In this document: positions 412-55,082 of the stretch, one piece after another | How positions within the stretch are numbered: position 1 is the stretch's first letter | How the letters are laid out: each line of letters starts with the position of its first letter | Notes under the pieces: generated by a model | Seen by the model: only the letters and a program-made list of their open reading frames with translations | The model's database searches: none | Told to the model about the DNA's origin: nothing | Translations under genes and position numbers: made by a program | Assembly: GCF_016820655.1 (NCBI RefSeq) | Contig: NZ_WSFT01000053.1 | Coordinates: forward strand, 124,001 to 188,000 | Direction of reading: 5' to 3' | Length of the DNA stretch: 64,000 nt | From: Anaeromonas frigoriresistens | Lineage (GTDB): Bacteria > Bacillota > Clostridia > Tissierellales > SIT17

Positions 412-420
412 TGGTATAAT
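412..420 (+). promoter_or_regulatory. Extended -10 promoter for DUF512-der-plsY-gpsA
   Basis: TATAAT lies at 415-420 and is preceded by TGG at 412-414, giving an extended -10 element. No convincing -35 hexamer is present at 16-18 bases upstream. Transcription would start inside or just after the FapR-like operator at 421-439. Confidence 0.55.
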
Positions 421-439
421 ATTAATACCTGGTACTAAT
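421..439. promoter_or_regulatory. FapR-like operator upstream of the plsY-gpsA operon
   Basis: The 19-base element ATTAATACCTGGTACTAAT directly abuts the TATAAT box at 415-420 and ends just before the AGAAGGAG ribosome-binding site. It differs at two positions from the reverse complement of the element before fapR at 48262-48280. It matches the FapR consensus known from Bacillus (TTAGTA-N5-TACTAA type), with one A for G in the left arm. A repressor here would block transcription of an operon that includes plsY and gpsA, which make phosphatidic acid precursors. The call is by motif only. Confidence 0.7.
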
Positions 440-454
440 TAGAAGGAGTAAATT

Positions 455-1786
455 ATGGAATTAAGAAATATTGATAAGAATGCAAATATAGTAGAAGAAG
501 TAATGAAAGATAGTATAGCTGAAGAGCTAGGAGTAGAAAAGGGAGATATTCTACTCTCAATAAATGGACAAGATATAAAAGATATAATTGATTATAAATT
601 TCACATTGCAGATGACTATGTTTTGGTTGATATTCAAAAACCAAATGGTGAAGTATGGGAATTAGAGATAGAAAAAGAATATGATGAAGATTTAGGAATA
701 AACTTTTCTAATCCTCTAATAGATAGGGCAAAAAACTGCAGAAATAACTGTATGTTTTGTTTTATTGATCAATTACCAAAAGGAATGAGAGAAACGCTAT
801 ACTTTAAAGATGATGACTCAAGATTATCTTTTCTACAGGGAAATTTTATTACATTAACGAACATGAGTGAAGAAGAAATTGATAGGATTATAAAATATAG
901 AATAAGTCCTATTAATATTTCAGTTCATACTACAAATCCAGATTTAAGAATTAGAATGTTAAATAATAAAAATGCTGGAAAGTTATATAATATATTAAAA
1001 CGATTTAATGAAGCTGATATAAAGATGAATGCTCAAATTGTATTAATACCAGAAGTAAATGATGGTAGTGAATTAAAAAGAACAGTAAAGGAATTAGCTG
1101 AATTTTATCCTAATATAGAAAGTATGGCAGTAGTGCCAGTTGGAATAACAGAGCATAGAAAAGAACTACCTGTTTTAGATTATTATGATAAAGAAAAATC
1201 CCAGAGATTATTAGAAGAAATCAAATCTTATCAAAATGATTATTTAGTAAAGATAGGTACACGATTTGTATTTGCTTCTGATGAGTTTTATATATTGGCG
1301 GAAAAACCTATACCTTCCTTTGAAGAATATGAAGGATTTCCTCAAATTGAAAATGGAGTTGGACTTTTGAGGGAATTTAAAAATGGTATAGAAAATGAAT
1401 TATTAAATTTAAAAGACATAGAATTAAATAAAACAGTATTAATAGCAACAGGAACTTCTGCTTATAAATTTATGGAAGAAGTTAGTGAAATGATTAGTTC
1501 TAAAATAAAAGGGTTGAATATTAAAGTAATATCTATTAAAAACAGATTCTTTGGTGAAACTATAACTGTATCTGGATTAGTAACTGGATCTGACCTATTA
1601 GAGCAAGTTAATAAAGTAGAAGGATTTGATGAATTAATTATTCCAAGATCTATGTTAAGAAGTGGAGAAGAGATTTTTTTAGATGATGTTACATTAGAAG
1701 AAATAAATAATAAATTAAATAAAAGTGTACTTGTTTCTGAAGTAAATGGAAAAGATTTTATTAGTACATTAATAAACAAGAGGTGA
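455..1786 (+). CDS. DUF512 family radical-SAM-like iron-sulfur protein with PDZ domain
   Basis: This 443-residue protein has an N-terminal PDZ-like domain (roughly residues 5-65), then a cysteine motif CRNNCMFC (C95, C99, C102) of the CX3CX2C radical SAM type. A conserved [19 protein letters not shown] stretch and a C-terminal DUF512 domain follow. The family is widespread in Clostridia and cyanobacteria, and its substrate is unknown. The ATG start follows AGAAGGAG. It is the first gene of a run with der, plsY and gpsA, spaced by 4, 2 and 15 bases, so the four are probably co-transcribed. The promoter region carries a FapR-like box. Family assignment is firm, but function is open. Confidence 0.9.
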
Positions 1787-1790
1787 TGAA

Positions 1791-3107
1791 ATGGGAAGAC
1801 CAATTTTAGCTATAGTTGGAAGACCAAACGTTGGAAAATCTACATTATTTAATAGAATTGCAGGAAAAAGAATATCAATAGTAGAAGATAAACCTGGAGT
1901 AACAAGAGATAGGATCTATGCTGAAGGTGAATGGTTAAATAATTATTTCTCAATGATAGATACGGGAGGTATAGAGCCTGACAGTGAAGATATAATCCTA
2001 TCGCAGATGAGACAACAGGCTGAGATGGCAATAGAGACTGCGGATGTTATACTTTTTATGGTTGATGGAGCAGAAGGACTAACAGCTACAGATAGAGAAG
2101 TAGCAAATATGTTAAGAAAATCTAGAAGAAGAATTATTCTAGTAGCAAATAAAGTTGATTCACATACGCCTCCAAGTACCATTTATGAATTTTATGAATT
2201 AGGTTTAGGAGAGCCTGTTATGATCTCTGCCAGTCATGGATATGGAATAGGTGACTTATTGGATGAAGCAATCAAACTATTCCCTGAAGATAAAGATATT
2301 GGATATGAAGAAGATGTTATTAAGGTAGCAGTAATAGGAAAACCAAATGCAGGAAAATCTTCATTAATTAATAAGATTCTAGGAGAAGAAAGAGTTATAG
2401 TTAGTGATATTCCTGGAACTACAAGGGATGCTATAGATACTCCCTTTAACGTAGGTGATGATAAATTCGTATTTATTGATACAGCTGGTATGAGAAAAAG
2501 AAAAAGAGTAACTGAAAATATTGAAAGATACAGTGTAGTAAGAGCACTAACTGCAATAGAAAGAGCAGATGTATGTTTAATGGTTATAGATGCTGAAGAA
2601 GGGGTTACAGAGCAAGATACAAAAATTGCTGGATATGCCCATGATAACGGAAAAGCTACTATAATATTAGTTAATAAATGGGATTTAATAGAAAAAGAGG
2701 ATAAGACTTATTTATCTTTTGAAAAAGATGTTAGAGAAGGATTAGCATTTATGGCTTATGCACCTATAGCATTTATATCTGCATTAACTGGTAAAAGAAT
2801 AAATAAAATAATTGATTTAATAAAAGTTGTATCTAATAATCATGCCATGAGAATAAGTACAGGGGTACTGAATGATATAGTAGGAGAAGCTATATTGATG
2901 AATCAACCACCATCTGATAAAGGTAAAAGATTAAAGATATTTTATGCAACTCAAGTGGCATCAAAGCCTCCTAAATTCGTGATTTTTGTAAATGATAAAG
3001 AATTAATGCATTTTTCATATGCAAGATATTTAGAAAATCAAATAAGAACATCCTTCGGATTGGAGGGAACACCGATTCTATTTGAATTTAGGGAAAGGGG
3101 GAAATAA
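1791..3107 (+). CDS. der: Ribosome biogenesis GTPase Der (EngA)
   Basis: Der is the tandem-GTPase factor needed for maturation of the 50S subunit. The 438-residue length is normal. The first G domain has P-loop GRPNVGKST near residue 8, DTGG and NKVD. The second has GKPNAGKSS near residue 183, DTAGM and NKWD. A KH-like C-terminal domain follows from about residue 350. The gene starts 4 bases after the DUF512 stop, with the GAGGTGATGAA ribosome site overlapping that stop. The order der-plsY-gpsA-spoIVA resembles the B. subtilis der-gpsA-spoIVA region. Confidence 0.97.
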
Positions 3108-3109
3108 TT

Positions 3110-3706
3110 TTGTTTAAAATCCTTTTGGTTATACTAATATCTTATATGATAGGTAATTTTTCAACATCTTATATTTTAGGTAAGTATTTAAAAAATGTTG
3201 ATATTAGAACAAAAGGCAGTGGTAATGCTGGGGCTACCAATGCATTGAGAGTTTTTGGTAAAAAAATTGCTTTGTTTACATTTTTCGTAGATGCATTAAA
3301 GGGAATAGTAGCAGTAATAGTTGGAAGAATGATTTTACAAGATACTGGAGGTCTTATAGCAGGGGTATTTGTTATTGTAGGACATAATTGGCCAGTTGTA
3401 TTAAAGTTCAAGGGGGGTAAAGGAATAGCTACTACAATCGGAGCAGCTTCCTTTATTAATCCTATACCGGCTATTATTGCAATAATTATAGGAATAATAA
3501 TTATAATTAAAACAAAATATGTTTCATTAGGGTCTATATCTGCCATGGCTTTAGTTCCTTTTATATCTTTATTAGTAGTTAATCCTTTTAATTTGGAATA
3601 TTTTATTTTTCTAGTAATCCTTTCATTAATGGCTGTATATAGACATAAAACCAACATCAAAAGACTTCTAAACGGAGAAGAATCTAAGTTAGGACAGAAA
3701 GCATAA
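3110..3706 (+). CDS. plsY: Glycerol-3-phosphate acyltransferase PlsY
   Basis: PlsY is an integral membrane enzyme that moves the acyl group from acyl-phosphate (made by PlsX, also in this window) to glycerol 3-phosphate, giving lysophosphatidic acid. The 198 residues include the usual loops GSGNAGATNALR near residue 37 and FKGGKGIATTIG near residue 103, within about five hydrophobic segments. The start is TTG, preceded by GGGAAAGGGGG. A start at TTG gives MFKILLVILISYMIGNFS, typical of the family's first membrane span. It sits 2 bases after der and 15 bases before gpsA, which supplies its substrate. Confidence 0.96.
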   Translation: MFKILLVILISYMIGNFSTSYILGKYLKNVDIRTKGSGNAGATNALRVFGKKIALFTFFVDALKGIVAVIVGRMILQDTGGLIAGVFVIVGHNWPVVLKFKGGKGIATTIGAASFINPIPAIIAIIIGIIIIIKTKYVSLGSISAMALVPFISLLVVNPFNLEYFIFLVILSLMAVYRHKTNIKRLLNGEESKLGQKA

Positions 3707-3721
3707 GAATGGAGGTAAACA

Positions 3722-4750
3722 ATGGATAAAAAAATAGGTATATTAGGTGGAGGAAGCTGGGGTACAGCTTTAGCAATACTATTAGCGAAAAAAGGTATTG
3801 ATGTTGATATATGGGTAAGGAATAAAGAGAAAGAAGCTAATATGAATAAGATAAGAGAAAATGTAAAGTATTTGCCCGGTATAGTTCTTCCTAACAATAT
3901 TAATATAACAAGTGATATTCAAAAATCTATACATAATAAAGATATAATTTTATTAGCTGTACCTACCCATGGGGTTAGAAATACCTTAGAAATGATTAAA
4001 AACGATCTAAAAGAAGGTCAGATAATAGTTAATGTAGCAAAAGGAATTGAAGTAGGTTCTCTTGAACGTATTTCAGAAATAGTTGAGGAATTGGTTCCTA
4101 CATCAAAATATGCTATATTATCAGGACCATCCCATGCAGAAGAGGTAGCTAAGGATATCCCAACAGCAGTAGTTGTTGCATCTAAAACTAAAGAAGTGGC
4201 TGAGTATATTCAAGAATTTTTCATGACTCCCAAATTTAGAGTATACACAAATCCTGATGTAATAGGTGTTGAACTTGGTGGTGCACTTAAAAATGTTATA
4301 GCTTTAGGAGCTGGAATATCTGATGGATTAAAATACGGAGATAATACAAAAGCGGCATTAATGAATAGAGGTATAATTGAGATTGCTAGACTTGGAGAGA
4401 AAATGGGAGCAAATAAAATGACTTTTGCTGGACTTTCCGGTATTGGAGACTTGATTGTTACGTGTACTAGTATGCATAGTAGAAATAGAAGAGCTGGTAT
4501 AAAAATAGGTGAAGGGTTAAGTATGGATGAAGCAATTACTTCAGTAGGTATGGTTGTAGAAGGAATAAAAACTTCGAAATCTGCTTATAATTTATCTAAG
4601 AAATATGGTGTAGACATGCCTATTGTTGATGAAATTTATGGAGTATTGTATGAAAATAAAGATGTTAAGAATTCTGTGATCAATTTAATGTTAAGAGATA
4701 AAACCCATGAGATAGCAGATATTGTTGAAAATGAAATATCTTCATGGTAG
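3722..4750 (+). CDS. gpsA: Glycerol-3-phosphate dehydrogenase [NAD(P)+]
   Basis: GpsA reduces dihydroxyacetone phosphate to sn-glycerol 3-phosphate for phospholipid synthesis. The 342-residue protein opens with the dinucleotide-binding motif GGGSWGTALA at residues 8-17. The catalytic lysine lies in ELGGALKN near residue 190, and GLSGIGDL marks the C-terminal substrate domain. A good GGAGG site precedes the ATG. The gene closes the lipid operon and ends in a strong hairpin terminator. With plsY it accounts for the two enzymes downstream of the FapR-like box. Confidence 0.97.
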   Translation: MDKKIGILGGGSWGTALAILLAKKGIDVDIWVRNKEKEANMNKIRENVKYLPGIVLPNNINITSDIQKSIHNKDIILLAVPTHGVRNTLEMIKNDLKEGQIIVNVAKGIEVGSLERISEIVEELVPTSKYAILSGPSHAEEVAKDIPTAVVVASKTKEVAEYIQEFFMTPKFRVYTNPDVIGVELGGALKNVIALGAGISDGLKYGDNTKAALMNRGIIEIARLGEKMGANKMTFAGLSGIGDLIVTCTSMHSRNRRAGIKIGEGLSMDEAITSVGMVVEGIKTSKSAYNLSKKYGVDMPIVDEIYGVLYENKDVKNSVINLMLRDKTHEIADIVENEISSW

Positions 4751-4777
4751 AACATACTTAGGTATGTTCTTTTTTTA
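4749..4777 (+). terminator. Terminator after gpsA
   Basis: AGAACATAC (4749-4757) and GTATGTTCT (4762-4770) form a 9-bp perfect stem with loop TTAG. They are followed by a run of T to 4777. The left arm overlaps the gpsA stop codon. Confidence 0.9.
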
Positions 4778-48261: not shown

Positions 48262-48280
48262 ATTAGTAACAGGTACTAAT
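48262..48280. promoter_or_regulatory. FapR operator, autoregulatory
   Basis: The 19-base element ATTAGTAACAGGTACTAAT is a near-exact match to the Bacillus FapR operator (TTAGTA-N5-TACTAA type). It covers the expected transcription start of the fapR promoter. The Bacillus FapR releases DNA when it binds malonyl-CoA, so the same control is expected here. Confidence 0.9.
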
Positions 48281-48306: not shown

Positions 48307-48864
48307 ATGAAAAAAAGAATTGCTAAAGTAGATAGGCAACGAGAACTAAAAGAAAGATTATCAAAAGATCCATTTTTAACAGATGAAGAGCTTACTCAAA
48401 TTTTTAATGTAAGTATTCAAACTATAAGACTGGATAGACTAGAACTAGGAATTCCAGAGTTAAGAGAAAGAGTAAAGAATGTTGCTGAAAAAAATTATTC
48501 TAAGGTTAGATCTTTAGGTGGTAAAGAGATTATTGGTGAGCTTATTGATTTGGAATTAGGTAAGTCAGGAATATCTATACTAGAAACAAATGGAAATATG
48601 GCCTTTGAAAAAACAAATATTATTAGAGGACACCATATCTTTGCTCAAGCAGAATCGATTGCTATGGCTGTCATAGATGCTGAGGTAGCATTAACAGGAG
48701 TGGCTAATATAAAGTATAAAACTCCAGTTAAAGCTGGAAATAAATTAGTAGCTAAAGCTGAAGTGGTAAGAAAACGAGGAAATAAATTTTTTGTTCACGT
48801 ATTTATTTTTGAGTCTCAAAAGGAAGTCTTTAGAGGAAAATTTATTTTAGTATCTATGAAATAG
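48307..48864 (+). CDS. fapR: Transcription factor FapR
   Basis: FapR represses fatty-acid and phospholipid genes and is released by malonyl-CoA. The 185 residues have an N-terminal helix-turn-helix ([19 protein letters not shown]) and a hotdog ligand domain from about residue 75 ([29 protein letters not shown]). ATG follows GAGGTGATA. A FapR box precedes it and a second lies at 421-439 before the plsY operon, so both lipid-synthesis loci could respond to the same signal. plsX begins 10 bases after its stop. Confidence 0.98.
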
Positions 48865-48874
48865 GAGTGATAAT

Positions 48875-49879
48875 ATGAAAATAGCAATTGATGCAATGGG
48901 TGGAGACAGAGGTACAGAAGTTACTGTGAAAGGTAGTGTAGATGCAGTTAATGAATTGGGTGTTAATGTAGTACTTGTAGGTAAAGAAGAAATTATAAAA
49001 AAGGAATTAAGTAAATACAAATTTGATAAAAGTAAAGTTGAAATATTAAATGCAAATGAAATTATTAATACTGATGAAAAACCAGTTGCAGCTATCAGAA
49101 GAAAAAAAGATTCTTCAATGGTTAAAGCATTAAAACTAGTTAAAGATAAAGAGGCTGATGCCATAGTATCAGCTGGAAGTACAGGAGCCTTGTTAAGCGG
49201 TGGATTATTTGTTGTAGGTAGGATAAAAGGTATTGATAGACCAGCCTTATCTCCTGTATATCCTACTGAAAAAGGAGTATCATTGCTCATAGATGCTGGG
49301 GCTAATGTAGACTGTAAACCTAAAAATTTACAACAGTTTGCAATAATGGGATCTATTTATGCAGAAAAAGTATTAGATATAAACAATCCAAAGGTTGGAT
49401 TGATAAATATAGGAGATGAAGAAAGTAAAGGAAATGAACTAACTAAGGAATCTTTCAAGTTACTTAAGGAAACTAAAGTTAATTTTTATGGAAATCTAGA
49501 AGTGAGAGAAATTCCTAAAGGTGAATGTGATGTGTTGGTATGTGATGGTTTTGTAGGAAATACTATCTTAAAATTAACCGAAGGTCTTGCATCTTCAATC
49601 TTCTCAGCTTTAAAAAATGAATTTATGAAAAATATAAAAACCAAGTTTGGTGCTTTATTATTGAAATCAGGATTAAAGAACTTTAAGAAAAGAATGGACT
49701 ACTCAGAATATGGTGGAGCATTACTTTTAGGTGTTAAAGGTGGTGTAATTAAAGCCCACGGTAGTTCTGATGAAAAAGCATTTAAGAATGCAATAAGACA
49801 AGCGAAAATATTTAGTGAAAATAATGTTGTTGAAATAATTCAGAATGAAATCATAAAGATGGAGGGTGACAATGGATAA
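48875..49879 (+). CDS. plsX: Phosphate acyltransferase PlsX
   Basis: PlsX converts acyl-ACP to acyl-phosphate for PlsY. The 334 residues begin [20 protein letters not shown], with [13 protein letters not shown] and [25 protein letters not shown] precedes ATG. Its end overlaps the fabH start by 8 bases, coupling their translation. The partner plsY is 45 kb away but carries the matching FapR box. Confidence 0.97.
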
Positions 49880-50870
49880 TACTGAATTTGGTATCGGAAT
49901 TATTGGTACTGGTAGCTATATTCCTGATAATATACTCACAAACAAAGAATTAGAAAGTATAGTAGATACTTCTGACGAATGGATAACTACTAGAACTGGT
50001 ATAAAAGAAAGAAGGATTTTAGATAAGAGTAAGGCTACTTCATACATGGCAAAGATTGCTGGCCAAAGGGCAATTGATGCTTCGGGATTAGGATCTGATG
50101 ATATAGATATGATAATAGTGACTACAGTAACCCCTGACATGGCATTTCCATCTACAGCTTGTATTGTACAAGAGAAATTAGGACTTAAGAATGCTGCAGC
50201 ATTTGATCTAGAAGCAGCTTGTACAGGGTTTATATATGGACTATCAACAGGATACTCTTTTATTAAATCTGGATTATACCAAAATGTTTTAGTTATAAGT
50301 GCCGATAATCTATCCAAAATCATTGACTGGGAAGACAGAAATACATGTGTTCTTTTTGGTGATGGTGCGGGAGCCGTTGTATTATCAAAGGTTGAATCTA
50401 ATAAAGGAATTATGTCCATAAAATTAGGAGCTGATGGGTCAGGAGGAGATTTATTATCTCAACCTGCTGGAGGATCATTAAGACCTTCTACTTTAGAAAC
50501 TGTTAAAGATAAATTACATTTCATAAAAATGGAAGGAAATTCAGTTTTTAAATTTGCGGTTAAGACGATGGTGGAGTCTTCTAAACAAGTTATGGAAGAG
50601 TCAGAGGTTAAAATACAAGAAATCGATCATTTAATACCTCATCAAGCTAATATGAGAATCATCGAATCTGCATCTAAAAGACTGAAGATAGACTTAGATA
50701 AAGTTCAACTCAACTTAGAAAAATATGGTAATATGTCTTCTGCTTCAATTCCAGTAGCATTGGATGAAGCAGTTAGAAGTGGCAAATTACATGATAATGA
50801 GAATGTATTATTAGTAGGATTTGGTGGTGGATTAACTTGGGGAGCTACCTTATTGAAATGGAAATCCTAA
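49872..50870 (+). CDS. fabH: 3-oxoacyl-[acyl-carrier-protein] synthase III
   Basis: FabH condenses acetyl-CoA with malonyl-ACP to begin fatty-acid elongation. ATG 49872, five bases from GGAGGG, gives 332 residues; the ribosome site and start are inside the end of plsX. The triad is C117 in [10 protein letters not shown], the histidine of HQANMRI and the asparagine of [19 protein letters not shown] ends the protein. Confidence 0.97.
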
Positions 50871-50886
50871 AGGTAGGAGGTTATTT

Positions 50887-51825
50887 ATGTTTGATACTAG
50901 AATAACAAAATTATTAAATATTAAATATCCCATAATACAAGGGGGTATGGCATGGGTAGCTACTGCAGAATTAGCTTCAGCTGTATCGGAAGCAGGAGGT
51001 TTAGGAGTCATTGGGTGTGGTGCTGCACCAGCAGATATAATAAAGAAAGAGATACAAAAAGCGAAGGAAATGACTGATAAACCATTTGGAGTTAATGTAA
51101 TGCTTATGTCACCTTTTGTTGATGATATTATGGAAATGCTTTATGAAGAAAAGGTGAGTGTAGTAACTACTGGAGCAGGTAATCCAGGGAAGTATATTGA
51201 AAAATTAAAGAATATTGGTACAAAGGTAATTCCTGTTGTCCCATCTGTGGCATTAGCTAAGAGAATGGAGAAGGTAGGAGCAGACGCTCTTATTGTTGAA
51301 GGGACAGAAGCAGGAGGACATATTGGAGAACTTACTACTTTTACTATTGTTCCTCAAGTGGTTGATGAAGTTGATATACCTGTTATAGCAGCCGGGGGTA
51401 TTGCAGATGGAAGAGGATATGTAGCTGCAGTATCTTTAGGTGCTGAAGGTGTTCAAATTGGAACCAGATTTGTATGCTCAGAAGAGTGTATTGCTCATAT
51501 TGAGTACAAAAATAAAATAGTTAATGCTAGAGATAGAGATGCAATAGTTACTGGAAGAATTACAGGTCACCCTGTGAGAATAATTAAAAATAAATTTTCT
51601 AAGAAATTAATCAATCTTGAAAAAGATATATCAAACAAAGGTGAGATAGATAGATTAACTATAGGCTCATATAAAAAAGCTGCAATTGATGGTGAGATAG
51701 ATCAAGGTTCAGTGATGGCTGGGCAAAGTAGTGGTCTTATTAAGGATATAAAAAATTGCAAAAATATAATAGATGATATCATAAAAGAATCTAATAAAGT
51801 ACAGAGTTACTTGTGTAATATATAG
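50887..51825 (+). CDS. fabK: Enoyl-[acyl-carrier-protein] reductase FabK (FMN-dependent)
   Basis: FabK reduces the enoyl-ACP double bond with FMN and NAD(P)H, replacing FabI. The 312 residues have the nitronate-monooxygenase-like barrel: IQGGMAWVATAELASAVSEAGG, VNVMLMSPFVD, EGTEAGGHIGE, VIAAGGIADGRG and GAEGVQIGTRFVCSEE. The position inside the fab operon supports FabK rather than a nitronate oxidase. No FabI is in the window. It lies 16 bases after fabH. Confidence 0.95.
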   Translation: MFDTRITKLLNIKYPIIQGGMAWVATAELASAVSEAGGLGVIGCGAAPADIIKKEIQKAKEMTDKPFGVNVMLMSPFVDDIMEMLYEEKVSVVTTGAGNPGKYIEKLKNIGTKVIPVVPSVALAKRMEKVGADALIVEGTEAGGHIGELTTFTIVPQVVDEVDIPVIAAGGIADGRGYVAAVSLGAEGVQIGTRFVCSEECIAHIEYKNKIVNARDRDAIVTGRITGHPVRIIKNKFSKKLINLEKDISNKGEIDRLTIGSYKKAAIDGEIDQGSVMAGQSSGLIKDIKNCKNIIDDIIKESNKVQSYLCNI

Positions 51826-51842
51826 TTAAGGGGGCATTGTAC

Positions 51843-52769
51843 ATGAAAACAGCTTTTGTATTCCCAGGGCAAGGTGCTCAATATATCGGGATGGGTGAAG
51901 AGTTTTATAATAACTTTAAAATTGCTCAAGATGTGTTCAATAAGTCAGAAGATATATTGGGAATAAATATGAAAGAATTATGTTTCGAGGGTCCTATGGA
52001 GCAATTGTCATTAACAGAAATAACACAGCCTGCTATATTAACAACATCTTATGCAATATTAAAAGTATTAGAAGATAAAGGTGTAAAAGCAGATGTGACA
52101 GCAGGATTAAGCTTAGGAGAATACACTGCTTTATTATATGCTGGAGCAATAAAGTTTGAGGATGCTGTAAAACTTGTAAGAAACAGAGGGAAATATATGC
52201 AGGAAGCAGTTCCAGAAGGCGATGGTAAGATGGCTGCTTTAATAGGTATAGATATTGAAGGCACTCATAGGTTAATTAAAGATCTTAGGGATAATGGAAT
52301 TATTGAGGCAGCTAATTATAACTGTCCTGGACAAATCGTAATAACAGGAGAGTCAGATGTAATAGAGAAAGCAGTTGCATTAGCAAAAGAATATGGTGCT
52401 AAAAAAGCTGTTTTATTGCCTGTAAGTGCACCTTTTCATTCAAGTTTATTAAAACCAGCAGGAAATAATTTAAAGAATGATTTAGAAGATATAGATATAA
52501 CTCCTTTAAATTGTGATGTTATATCCAATGTTACAGCAGATTATATTAACGAAAATGAAATTAAGGATTTATTAATAAAACAGGTTTGTACTTCAGTATA
52601 TTGGCAGCAATCTATTGAAAAGATGCTAAATGACGGAGTAACGAGGTTTATCGAGATTGGTCCTGGGAAATCTTTATCAACATTTATAAAAAAAATTGCT
52701 AAAAAACAAAAAACAAAAGTAGATATTATAAATATCGAATCAATAAAAGATTTAGATTTATTAATATAA
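51843..52769 (+). CDS. fabD: Malonyl-CoA:ACP transacylase
   Basis: FabD moves malonyl from CoA to ACP. ATG 51843 follows AAGGGGG and gives 308 residues starting MKTAFVFPGQGAQYIGMG; an in-frame TTG six bases earlier is less suitable. The active serine S90 lies in the GLSLGEYTAL elbow, with the catalytic histidine in SAPFHSSLLKPA. It follows fabK by 17 bases. Confidence 0.97.
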   Translation: MKTAFVFPGQGAQYIGMGEEFYNNFKIAQDVFNKSEDILGINMKELCFEGPMEQLSLTEITQPAILTTSYAILKVLEDKGVKADVTAGLSLGEYTALLYAGAIKFEDAVKLVRNRGKYMQEAVPEGDGKMAALIGIDIEGTHRLIKDLRDNGIIEAANYNCPGQIVITGESDVIEKAVALAKEYGAKKAVLLPVSAPFHSSLLKPAGNNLKNDLEDIDITPLNCDVISNVTADYINENEIKDLLIKQVCTSVYWQQSIEKMLNDGVTRFIEIGPGKSLSTFIKKIAKKQKTKVDIINIESIKDLDLLI

Positions 52770-52791
52770 CAATTTAATTGAGGTGATCAAA

Positions 52792-53535
52792 ATGGATCTT
52801 AACGGTAAAACAGCTATTATCACTGGAGGCTCTAGAGGTATTGGAAAGGAGATCGCTCTCACTCTTGCTCAAAATGGAGCTGATATTATAATAAATTATT
52901 CTAATAGTTCTACTAAAGCTTTAGAAGTAGTAGATATGATTAATAATTTAGGAAGAAAAGCATATGCTATAAAAGCTGATATATCTAAAATGGAGGAAGC
53001 TAATAAATTAATAGAAGAATCATATGAAAAGGTTGGAAAAATTGATATTCTAGTTAATAATGCAGGAATTACAAGGGATAACTTACTCATGAGAATGTCA
53101 GAAAAAGAATGGGATGATGTTATAGAAGTCAACCTAAAAGGTACTTTCAATGTAACTAAGTCAATTGTTAGAAAAATGATGAAACAAAAAAGTGGAAGTA
53201 TAATAAATATAAGTTCTATAGTAGGTATAACTGGAAATCCAGGTCAGTGCAATTATTCCGCATCAAAGGCTGGTATTATTGGATTCACAAAATCTTTAGC
53301 TAAAGAGATTGGAAAGAAGAATATTCGAGTAAATGCTATAGCTCCTGGATTTATTCAGACAGATATGACTAAAGAGCTTAATGAAGATATCAAAGAAGCT
53401 TATCTTAAAAATATTGCTTTAAATAAATTTGGCACTGCTACAGACGTTGCCAACACAGTATTGTTTTTATCCAGTAATTTATCCCAATATATTACTGGGC
53501 AAACCTTAGTAGTAGATGGAGGATTAGCAGTATAA
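52792..53535 (+). CDS. fabG: 3-oxoacyl-[acyl-carrier-protein] reductase
   Basis: FabG reduces beta-ketoacyl-ACP with NADPH. The 247 residues, from ATG 52792 after GAGGTGATC, have the SDR motif TGGSRGIGKEIAL, NNAGITRDNLLMRM, and the active-site tyrosine Y155 and lysine K159 in NYSASKAG. The C-terminal ITGQTLVVDGGLAV is typical of FabG. acpP follows 20 bases later. Confidence 0.97.
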   Translation: MDLNGKTAIITGGSRGIGKEIALTLAQNGADIIINYSNSSTKALEVVDMINNLGRKAYAIKADISKMEEANKLIEESYEKVGKIDILVNNAGITRDNLLMRMSEKEWDDVIEVNLKGTFNVTKSIVRKMMKQKSGSIINISSIVGITGNPGQCNYSASKAGIIGFTKSLAKEIGKKNIRVNAIAPGFIQTDMTKELNEDIKEAYLKNIALNKFGTATDVANTVLFLSSNLSQYITGQTLVVDGGLAV

Positions 53536-53555
53536 ATTGAAAGGAGGTGTTAGTA

Positions 53556-53783
53556 ATGGTATTAGAGAAATTAAAGAATATTATAGCTGAACAATTAGAT
53601 GTTGAGAAAGAAGATATTAAATTAGAGTCATCATTTCAGAATGATTTAGGTGCAGATTCACTAGACGTTGTTGAACTTATCATGGCGATTGAAGAGGATT
53701 TTGAAATAGAAATACCTGATGAAGATGCAGAAAAGATATCTATTGTGAAGGATGCAGTAGATTATATAAATAACAACAAATAA
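53556..53783 (+). CDS. acpP: Acyl carrier protein
   Basis: Acp carries the growing acyl chain on a phosphopantetheine arm. From ATG 53556 after AAGGAGG the protein has 75 residues, with the attachment serine S35 in the [10 protein letters not shown] motif. CoaBC and CoaD, also encoded in this window, supply the CoA needed for the arm. A palindromic terminator follows, so fabF may rely on readthrough. Confidence 0.98.
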
Positions 53784-53784
53784 C

Positions 53785-53816
53785 AATAAAGTCCCGTCGT
53801 CAGTCGGGACTTTATT
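53785..53816. terminator. Hairpin between acpP and fabF
   Basis: AATAAAGTCCCG (53785-53796) pairs perfectly with CGGGACTTTATT (53805-53816) over an 8-base loop. The T tract is only TTTATT inside the stem, so partial readthrough to fabF is likely. Confidence 0.75.
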
Positions 53817-53843
53817 AGTAAACTTCTATATAGGAGGTAAGTC

Positions 53844-55082
53844 ATGAATAATAGAGTAGTTATAACGGGGATTGGGGTTATTAGTCCTATAGGGATTGGT
53901 AAAGATAATTTTTGGAAAGCATTAGTAGCGGGTAAAAGTGGTGTAGATTATATAACTAGATTTGATACTACTGATTATGCAACAAAAATTGCAGCTGAAG
54001 TTAAAGATTTTGATCCTGTTAATTATATAGATAAGAAAGAAGCTAAAAGAATGGATAGATATACACAGTTTGCCGTTGCAGCTTCAAGACTTGCTATAGA
54101 TGATGCCAAAATAAATACTGATGAGATAGATAATGAAAGATTTGGTGTTATATTTGGTTCTGGTATTGGAGGTATTGAAACTTTTGAAGAACAAAAGGAA
54201 AAGCTAATAAATAAAGGTCCTAAGAGGATAAGCCCATTCTTTATTCCAATGATGATAGGTAATATGGCAGCAGGTCAGATTGCAATAGCTTTTAATGCGA
54301 AGGGACCTAATGAAACAGTAGTTACGGCTTGTGCATCATCTACAAATGCAATTGGTGATGCATTCAAGGTTCTACAAAGAGGAGATGCAGATATTTTAAT
54401 AACTGGTGGTTCAGAAGCATCAATTACTCCGATTGCATTAGCTGGATTTTCGTCTATGAAGGCTTTATCAACTAATAATGATAATCCTCAAAAAGCAAGT
54501 AGGCCCTTTGATAAAGATAGAGATGGTTTTGTAATGGGAGAAGGATCTGGAGTATTGATATTAGAAACATTAGAGCATGCATTAAATAGAGGTGCTAAAA
54601 TATATGCTGAAGTTGCGGGATATGGTTCAACTTGTGATGCAAACCATATTACAACTCCTTTAGAAGATGGGAGCGGAGCTAAGAGAGCAATGGAATTAGC
54701 AATTAAAGATGCAAAAGTTGATAAGTCTAAGATAAATTATATTAATGCCCATGGTACTTCAACTTATTACAATGACAAATTCGAAACATTAGCTATTAAA
54801 AATTTATTTGAGGAATCATTATATAATATTAAGATAAGTTCTACAAAATCAATGACAGGACACCTTCTAGGTGCTGCTGGTGGAGTAGAAGCAATTGCAA
54901 CTACATTAGCCATAAAAAACGGCATAATTCCGCCCACTATTAATCTTGTAAATCAAGATGAAGAATGTGATCTTAATTATGTACCTAATACTGCAATAAA
55001 AGAAGAAGTAAATTATGCACTATCAAATTCATTAGGATTTGGTGGGCATAATGCAACTGTTTTATTTAAAAAGTATGAGTAA
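53844..55082 (+). CDS. fabF: 3-oxoacyl-[acyl-carrier-protein] synthase II
   Basis: FabF performs the main chain-elongating condensations. The 412 residues contain the catalytic C163 in [16 protein letters not shown], the histidines in [14 protein letters not shown] and [10 protein letters not shown], and the C-terminal [16 protein letters not shown] precedes ATG. It is the last gene of the fab operon and is followed by a strong palindrome. Confidence 0.97.

Follow-up and report, generated by a model that had tools for sequence, protein, structure and literature searches.

A predicted FapR operator at the promoter of a DUF512-der-plsY-gpsA operon in Anaeromonas frigoriresistens and in other Clostridia

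The DNA analysed here, referred to below as the window, is a stretch of 64,000 nucleotides from Anaeromonas frigoriresistens (order Tissierellales, class Clostridia). Close to its start lies a run of genes for a DUF512 protein, the ribosome assembly GTPase Der, the acyltransferase PlsY and the glycerol-3-phosphate dehydrogenase GpsA, and this run is preceded by a promoter and a short palindrome at 421-439 which resembles the operator of FapR, the repressor of fatty-acid synthesis genes. The locus is laid out as follows.

412-420, forward strand: TGG-TATAAT extended -10 promoter element, by direct reading.
421-439, no strand assigned: predicted FapR operator, a 19-base palindrome with a 17-base core at 422-438, spanning the predicted transcription start.
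455-1786, forward strand: gene for a PDZ / radical SAM / DUF512 protein of the cobalamin-binding type, first in the operon (PF04459, PF19238, PF17820).
1791-3107, forward strand: der, ribosome assembly GTPase (TIGR03594, 596 bits).
3110-3706, forward strand: plsY, acyl-phosphate:glycerol-3-phosphate acyltransferase, listed start TTG (TIGR00023, 170 bits, above cut-off).
3722-4750, forward strand: gpsA, glycerol-3-phosphate dehydrogenase (NF000941, 477 bits, above cut-off).
4749-4777, forward strand: terminator-like stem of nine pairs (4749-4770) followed by a T run, at the operon end before spoIVA.

Family profile matches of the window proteins show that the initial annotation had labelled the four genes (DUF512, Der, PlsY, GpsA) correctly. 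They are separated by gaps of only 4, 2 and 15 bases, and the order der, plsY, gpsA was kept in those loci of relatives which were long enough to judge. Pattern matches for internal promoters within the operon were no more frequent than in shuffled sequence. DUF512 proteins of the PDZ/radical-SAM type bind cobalamin (PMC11659888).

The element at 421-439 (ATTAATACCTGGTACTAAT) begins right after the TATAAT at 415-420, which is itself preceded by TGG; that the two abut had been claimed in the initial annotation and was borne out by direct reading of 415-439. Judged from the -10 box, transcription would start near 427, i.e. within the element. The same window carries fapR and its own operator, which served as the reference for comparison.

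48262-48280, no strand assigned: reference element, the autoregulatory operator of fapR, whose 17-base core scores 25.3 bits.
48307-48864, forward strand: fapR, the regulator (NF003359, 269 bits, above cut-off), aligning to Staphylococcus aureus FapR (SaFapR, 4a0x).
48875-55082, forward strand: remainder of the fapR run, with plsX, fabH, fabK, fabD, fabG and fabF (NCBIfam), excluding a short stretch at 53536-53843.

The reference operator reads ATTAGTAACAGGTACTAAT. Its reverse complement and the 421-439 element disagree at two positions, the same number as first reported. The FapR encoded in the window is a full-length member of its family (NF003359). Sites were scored with a matrix derived from six different fapR-upstream sites in relatives, which contains no operon site and has a maximum of 28.4 bits (G044 and G019 did not contribute a fapR region), and with this matrix the 17-base core of the 421-439 element reached 22.5 bits. 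In Bacillus subtilis and S. aureus the FapR site is described as a 17-bp inverted repeat located inside the promoter or immediately after it (PMC5052256). Here, likewise, a 17-bp inverted repeat was found in a promoter-adjacent position, and FapR is encoded in the same genome.

The window was also scanned with a literature-based FapR consensus of 17 bases. Seven matches were detected at up to three mismatches against 4.4 expected, with seven or more occurring in 16 of 100 shuffles, and the loose consensus pattern alone is not significant within the window. At zero or one mismatch only 421-439 and 48262-48280 were found, with no further match at two. The observation of a FapR-like element at 421-439 is confirmed.

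Across the whole genome of A. frigoriresistens (3.2 Mb, 53 contigs), candidates were collected by a pattern search which is complete to two mismatches and partial at three, and the 421-439 element ranked third of the 33 candidates scored. Twenty simulations of random sequence with the size and base composition of this genome gave means of 2.65 sites of at least 17 bits and 0.25 of at least 20 bits, and no site of at least 22 bits.

Conservation within the order was assessed in 60 genomes, including that of A. frigoriresistens. FapR was found in 23 and DUF512 in 50, and 48 upstream regions were used, leaving out G034 and G045, both FapR-negative; G027 has FapR without a DUF512 match. A site of at least 13.4 bits, 33-127 bp before the matched DUF512 start, was present in 15 of 22 FapR-positive genomes, whereas the best operon-head score among the 26 FapR-negative genomes was 6.6 bits (Fisher p = 1.6e-7 by genome; p = 0.009 by family, 6/9 vs 0/9). 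In all 15 site-bearing genomes a single base separates the 17-base core from a -10-like hexamer with its TGn, and the hexamer is an exact TATAAT in 13 of them. By eye, G028 has the TATAAT promoter without the operator, and its congeners G012 and G040 have both. Ten other sites of at least 12 bits were present in the FapR-positive loci of the order, nine inside matched genes and one at 516 bp before DUF512 (G033). Upstream of fapR itself, a site at no more than two mismatches was found in 18 of 20 fetched relatives. A TAG in frame with the DUF512 gene of G001 proved to be just its ordinary stop codon, the protein there being shorter by two residues, and the DUF512 match of G003 had the same appearance.

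Beyond the order, a class draw gave a FapR match in 120 of 341 genomes, A. frigoriresistens included, and 65 were taken at one per genus; G315, which belongs to the order of the window, and three genera whose matches were weak or split (G137, G172, G263) were left out. PlsY was detected in 62 of these 65, and 59 loci were fetched (matches in G092, G113 and G182 were in pieces), of which 50 were used, as the other nine had no operon head within the fetched stretch and were not counted. Among 40 FapR-negative genomes 35 had plsY; the best 20 of the 35 were fetched and 17 were used. A site of at least 12 bits stood 14-147 bp before DUF512 (n = 10) or der (n = 2) in 12 of the 50 FapR-positive genomes, and the 59 FapR-positive loci contained no site of this strength other than these 12. 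The idea that FapR-positive genomes without a head site might carry one before plsY or gpsA was dropped on this count and on the positions of the ten other sites in the order. No site of at least 12 bits occurred in the 20 fetched FapR-negative loci, where the operon-head count was 0 of 17.

When both sets were pooled, 27 of 72 FapR-positive genomes had an operon-head site of at least 12 bits vs 0 of 43 FapR-negative genomes (Fisher p = 4e-7; 0.028 for the class set alone). The initial annotation had named lack of conservation in relatives as grounds for rejecting its proposal; the element stood up to this test, also outside the order. Among 80 named DUF512 loci listed, a site of this strength was present in four, those of Thermotalea metallivorans, Anaerophilus nitritogenes and two metagenome-assembled genomes (one of which, L101, is the same genome as G138). 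All four encode FapR, which was found in nine of the 26 genomes searched among the 80 listed. The next best of these listed loci, from Oceanirhabdus, scored 10.5 bits at 348 bp upstream, and no FapR was found in this genome.

The placement of sites within loci was sharply biased, with 1.84 sites of at least 12 bits per kb in operon heads vs 0.021 per kb elsewhere in FapR-positive loci (88-fold), and 20 operon-head sites of at least 17 bits vs one elsewhere. Only one of 1000 permuted matrices which preserved the palindrome reached 27 genomes (mean 0.14), and operon-head sites persisted in loci with a G+C content near 50% as well (G154, G140). An AT-rich palindrome could of course fall beside a TATAAT by chance and have no regulatory meaning, which would fit the loose matches expected in the window and the strong-looking sites also seen inside genes. 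However, the 27 genomes with an operon-head site, the 88-fold density, the lack of any site of at least 22 bits in 20 random genomes and the retention of the site in loci of balanced base composition make this extremely improbable. The element could instead be a true operator for a different DNA-binding protein with a motif resembling that of FapR, since FapR was assigned from sequence. We consider this very unlikely, as the same motif, with a score of at least 12 bits, was found ahead of fapR in 32 of 39 class loci (counting one genome twice) as well as in 18 of 20 order relatives, but at the operon in none of the 43 FapR-negative genomes.

The comparative evidence supports the interpretation put forward in the initial annotation. 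The 421-439 element is very probably a FapR operator over the transcription start, through which FapR would repress plsY and gpsA along with plsX and the genes of fatty-acid synthesis. In the scheme we infer, which takes in binding, repression, an inducer, co-transcription and an effect on RNA, free FapR on 421-439 would block RNA polymerase, and a rising signal from fatty-acid precursors, which is malonyl-CoA in those species that have been studied, would release it. PlsY and GpsA would then rise along with PlsX and the fab genes of the fapR run, because plsX follows fapR under the same kind of operator. One switch would hence act on PlsX as the source of acyl-phosphate, on GpsA as the source of glycerol-3-phosphate and on PlsY, which joins the two. 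Co-regulation of Der and the DUF512 protein would follow from the promoter that their genes share with plsY and gpsA.

FapR might bind here for the sake of der or the DUF512 gene, with control of plsY and gpsA incidental. In favour of this, the site heads the operon, in front of DUF512 or der, internal promoters may exist, and the C. difficile gene for such a DUF512 protein is reported as essential by transposon sequencing (PMC12548448). The site nevertheless stands before der in two of ten usable FapR-positive loci without a DUF512 match (G154, G370), which shows that the site does not depend on a DUF512 gene, and PlsY and GpsA share a pathway with the other FapR targets (plsX and the fab genes). 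Selection on der or DUF512 is an unlikely explanation, and joint control of plsY and gpsA with fatty-acid synthesis remains our preferred reading.

Several observations weigh against FapR control of this operon by a malonyl-CoA signal. No operon-head site was found in 45 of the 72 FapR-positive genomes, relatives of Clostridioides difficile included. In C. difficile itself, which encodes FapR and has a 23.1-bit site before fapR, the DUF512 operon scores only 2.5 bits. Sites of at least 12 bits also occurred away from operon heads, ten in FapR-positive loci and four in FapR-negative loci, one of the latter with 18.0 bits inside DUF512. Furthermore, a quick Der tree of 119 rows contained at least 13 changes in FapR and 15 in the site, and of six supported independent pairs differing in FapR the site was concordant in 0.7 on average and opposite in none, which is not significant. 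The association of FapR and site is thus not significant given ancestry. The placement of sites within loci, which is independent of the contrast between FapR-positive and FapR-negative genomes, is the stronger evidence and carries the case.

The remaining points on this side concern the inducer. Malonate is contacted in SaFapR by Arg110, Gly111 and Asn119; the window FapR keeps the Arg and the Gly, but the equivalent of Asn119 is Glu (residue 116). This position is Asn in Bacillus and Staphylococcus. Of 50 other clostridial FapR proteins, 49 have Glu here and one has Asp; the Arg110 position holds Arg in 43 and Lys in seven, and the Gly111 position Gly in 49. In addition, the genome of A. frigoriresistens gave no strong biotin carboxylase match (best 25 bits, cut-off 626), and its single carboxyltransferase is mmdA-like, in a cluster resembling methylmalonyl-CoA decarboxylase (L292). 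These observations would suit a FapR which controls the operon in this lineage but senses a ligand other than malonyl-CoA. We regard such a ligand as possible but rather unlikely, given the conserved equivalents of Arg110 and Gly111 and the presence of fabD, whose product uses malonyl-CoA as its substrate. By family membership malonyl-CoA is the likely inducer, but the replacement of Asn119 by Glu, together with the lack of a detected biotin carboxylase, makes the inducer in this lineage uncertain.

On the DNA-binding side, base-specific contacts in the SaFapR-DNA complex are made by Gln41 and Arg56 (PMC3536700), and the window FapR keeps both equivalents in the alignment to SaFapR. Among the 50 other clostridial proteins the Arg56 position was always Arg, and the Gln41 position was Gln in 42 and Pro in eight (L259-L261, L263-L265, L267, L268). 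The best fapR-upstream site ended in GGTAATAA in all eight Pro-type loci and in none of the 22 other class loci of the set, which looks as if the Gln41 residue and the operator had changed together. GGTAATAA does occur at the plsY operon of some Gln-type genomes (G284, G127, G370, G138). A shifted motif on the operon was considered for the Pro-type proteins and rejected, as a matrix of their own fapR sites found no operon-head site in the eight genomes (best 4.5 bits).

Eight candidates in the A. frigoriresistens genome reached 17 bits or more, three overlapping open reading frames and five upstream of genes, namely fapR, the DUF512 operon, fabZ, a FabK-like gene and a gene for a protein of 183 amino acids. 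Strong intragenic sites (C4:32792, in gyrA by eye; C11:28731) were dropped as targets, given the 2.65 chance sites of this strength expected. The site upstream of fabZ (L003:1524-1540) scored 20.4 bits and that upstream of the FabK-like gene, of the nitronate monooxygenase family, 18.0 bits (L005:1365-1381); from their sites, both genes are likely to be further FapR targets. The gene for the 183-amino-acid protein (L279:1501-2052; C20, 98902-99450) has a 25.3-bit site upstream (L279:1444-1460; C20, 98845). Its product had no Pfam family match, and its predicted fold (mean predicted local distance difference test score 81) had no match in the PDB at an E-value of 0.001 or better. Seven strong orthologues, all from FapR-positive genomes, had sites of 25.0, 25.3, 25.3, 13.8, 13.8, 20.4 and 25.0 bits, of which the two 13.8-bit ones (G011, G027) are roughly 275-290 bp upstream and the others within 60 bp; a weak ninth match (G040) was without a FapR site.

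The arrangement in A. frigoriresistens is like the fap regulon of B. subtilis and S. aureus in its repressor family, its 17-bp repeat and the control of fapR-plsX-fab genes. The S. aureus FapR regulon is given as the Bacillus list minus yhfC and fabHB (PMC3536700), and plsY, gpsA, der and DUF512 are, in contrast, absent from the regulon lists given for these two species. The initial annotation had placed plsY, gpsA and der outside the classical Bacillus FapR regulon, in agreement with the list in PMC4525379. Genes of phosphatidic acid synthesis are, however, broadly described as FapR-controlled in both species in one account (PMC3840577), and a wider reading of the regulon is possible. Unlike plsC of Bacillus, the two plsC-like genes here (PF01553; L288, L289) had no FapR site in their fetched surroundings (best 6.4 and 9.9 bits), and it is plsY-gpsA that has the site.

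FapR outside the Bacilli has also been described in Caldicellulosiruptor bescii and Caldicellulosiruptor saccharolyticus, with predicted sites on a fatty-acid unit, and genes rise in the deletion strain (PMC7071700). There, by contrast, the second predicted target is a malonyl-CoA unit, and plsY and gpsA have no occurrence in the main text of that paper. The lone carboxyltransferase cluster of A. frigoriresistens differs from that unit in having no FapR site nearby (best 9.9 bits). A literature search, whose scope excluded RegPrecise and most subscription papers so that an earlier prediction is possible, found no report of plsY, gpsA or der as FapR targets. This looks like a known kind of switch on a new target operon.

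The FapR regulon lists available for the species studied cover PlsX and PlsC, and not PlsY or GpsA. If FapR does control this operon, the supply of the phospholipid backbone and its joining to acyl chains would come under one signal, so both supplies could be balanced at the level of transcription. It would also give a concrete reason for the amounts of Der and the DUF512 radical-SAM enzyme to track lipid metabolism. With this operon, a FapR target open to testing is put forward for many anaerobes, a group in which, from the literature covered, FapR has apparently hardly been studied. A larger picture can be offered tentatively, with the odds still against it, in which FapR across a broad part of the Clostridia, its ligand pocket differing from the one in Bacillus and Staphylococcus, would be the switch for all the steps that lead into phospholipid synthesis (the making of acyl-phosphate and glycerol-3-phosphate and the PlsY reaction). 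It would also couple ribosome assembly, through Der, and a cobalamin-binding radical-SAM enzyme to the supply of lipid. At the level of the operon itself, FapR control would mean that both arms of membrane building are tied to one signal in a number of clostridia.
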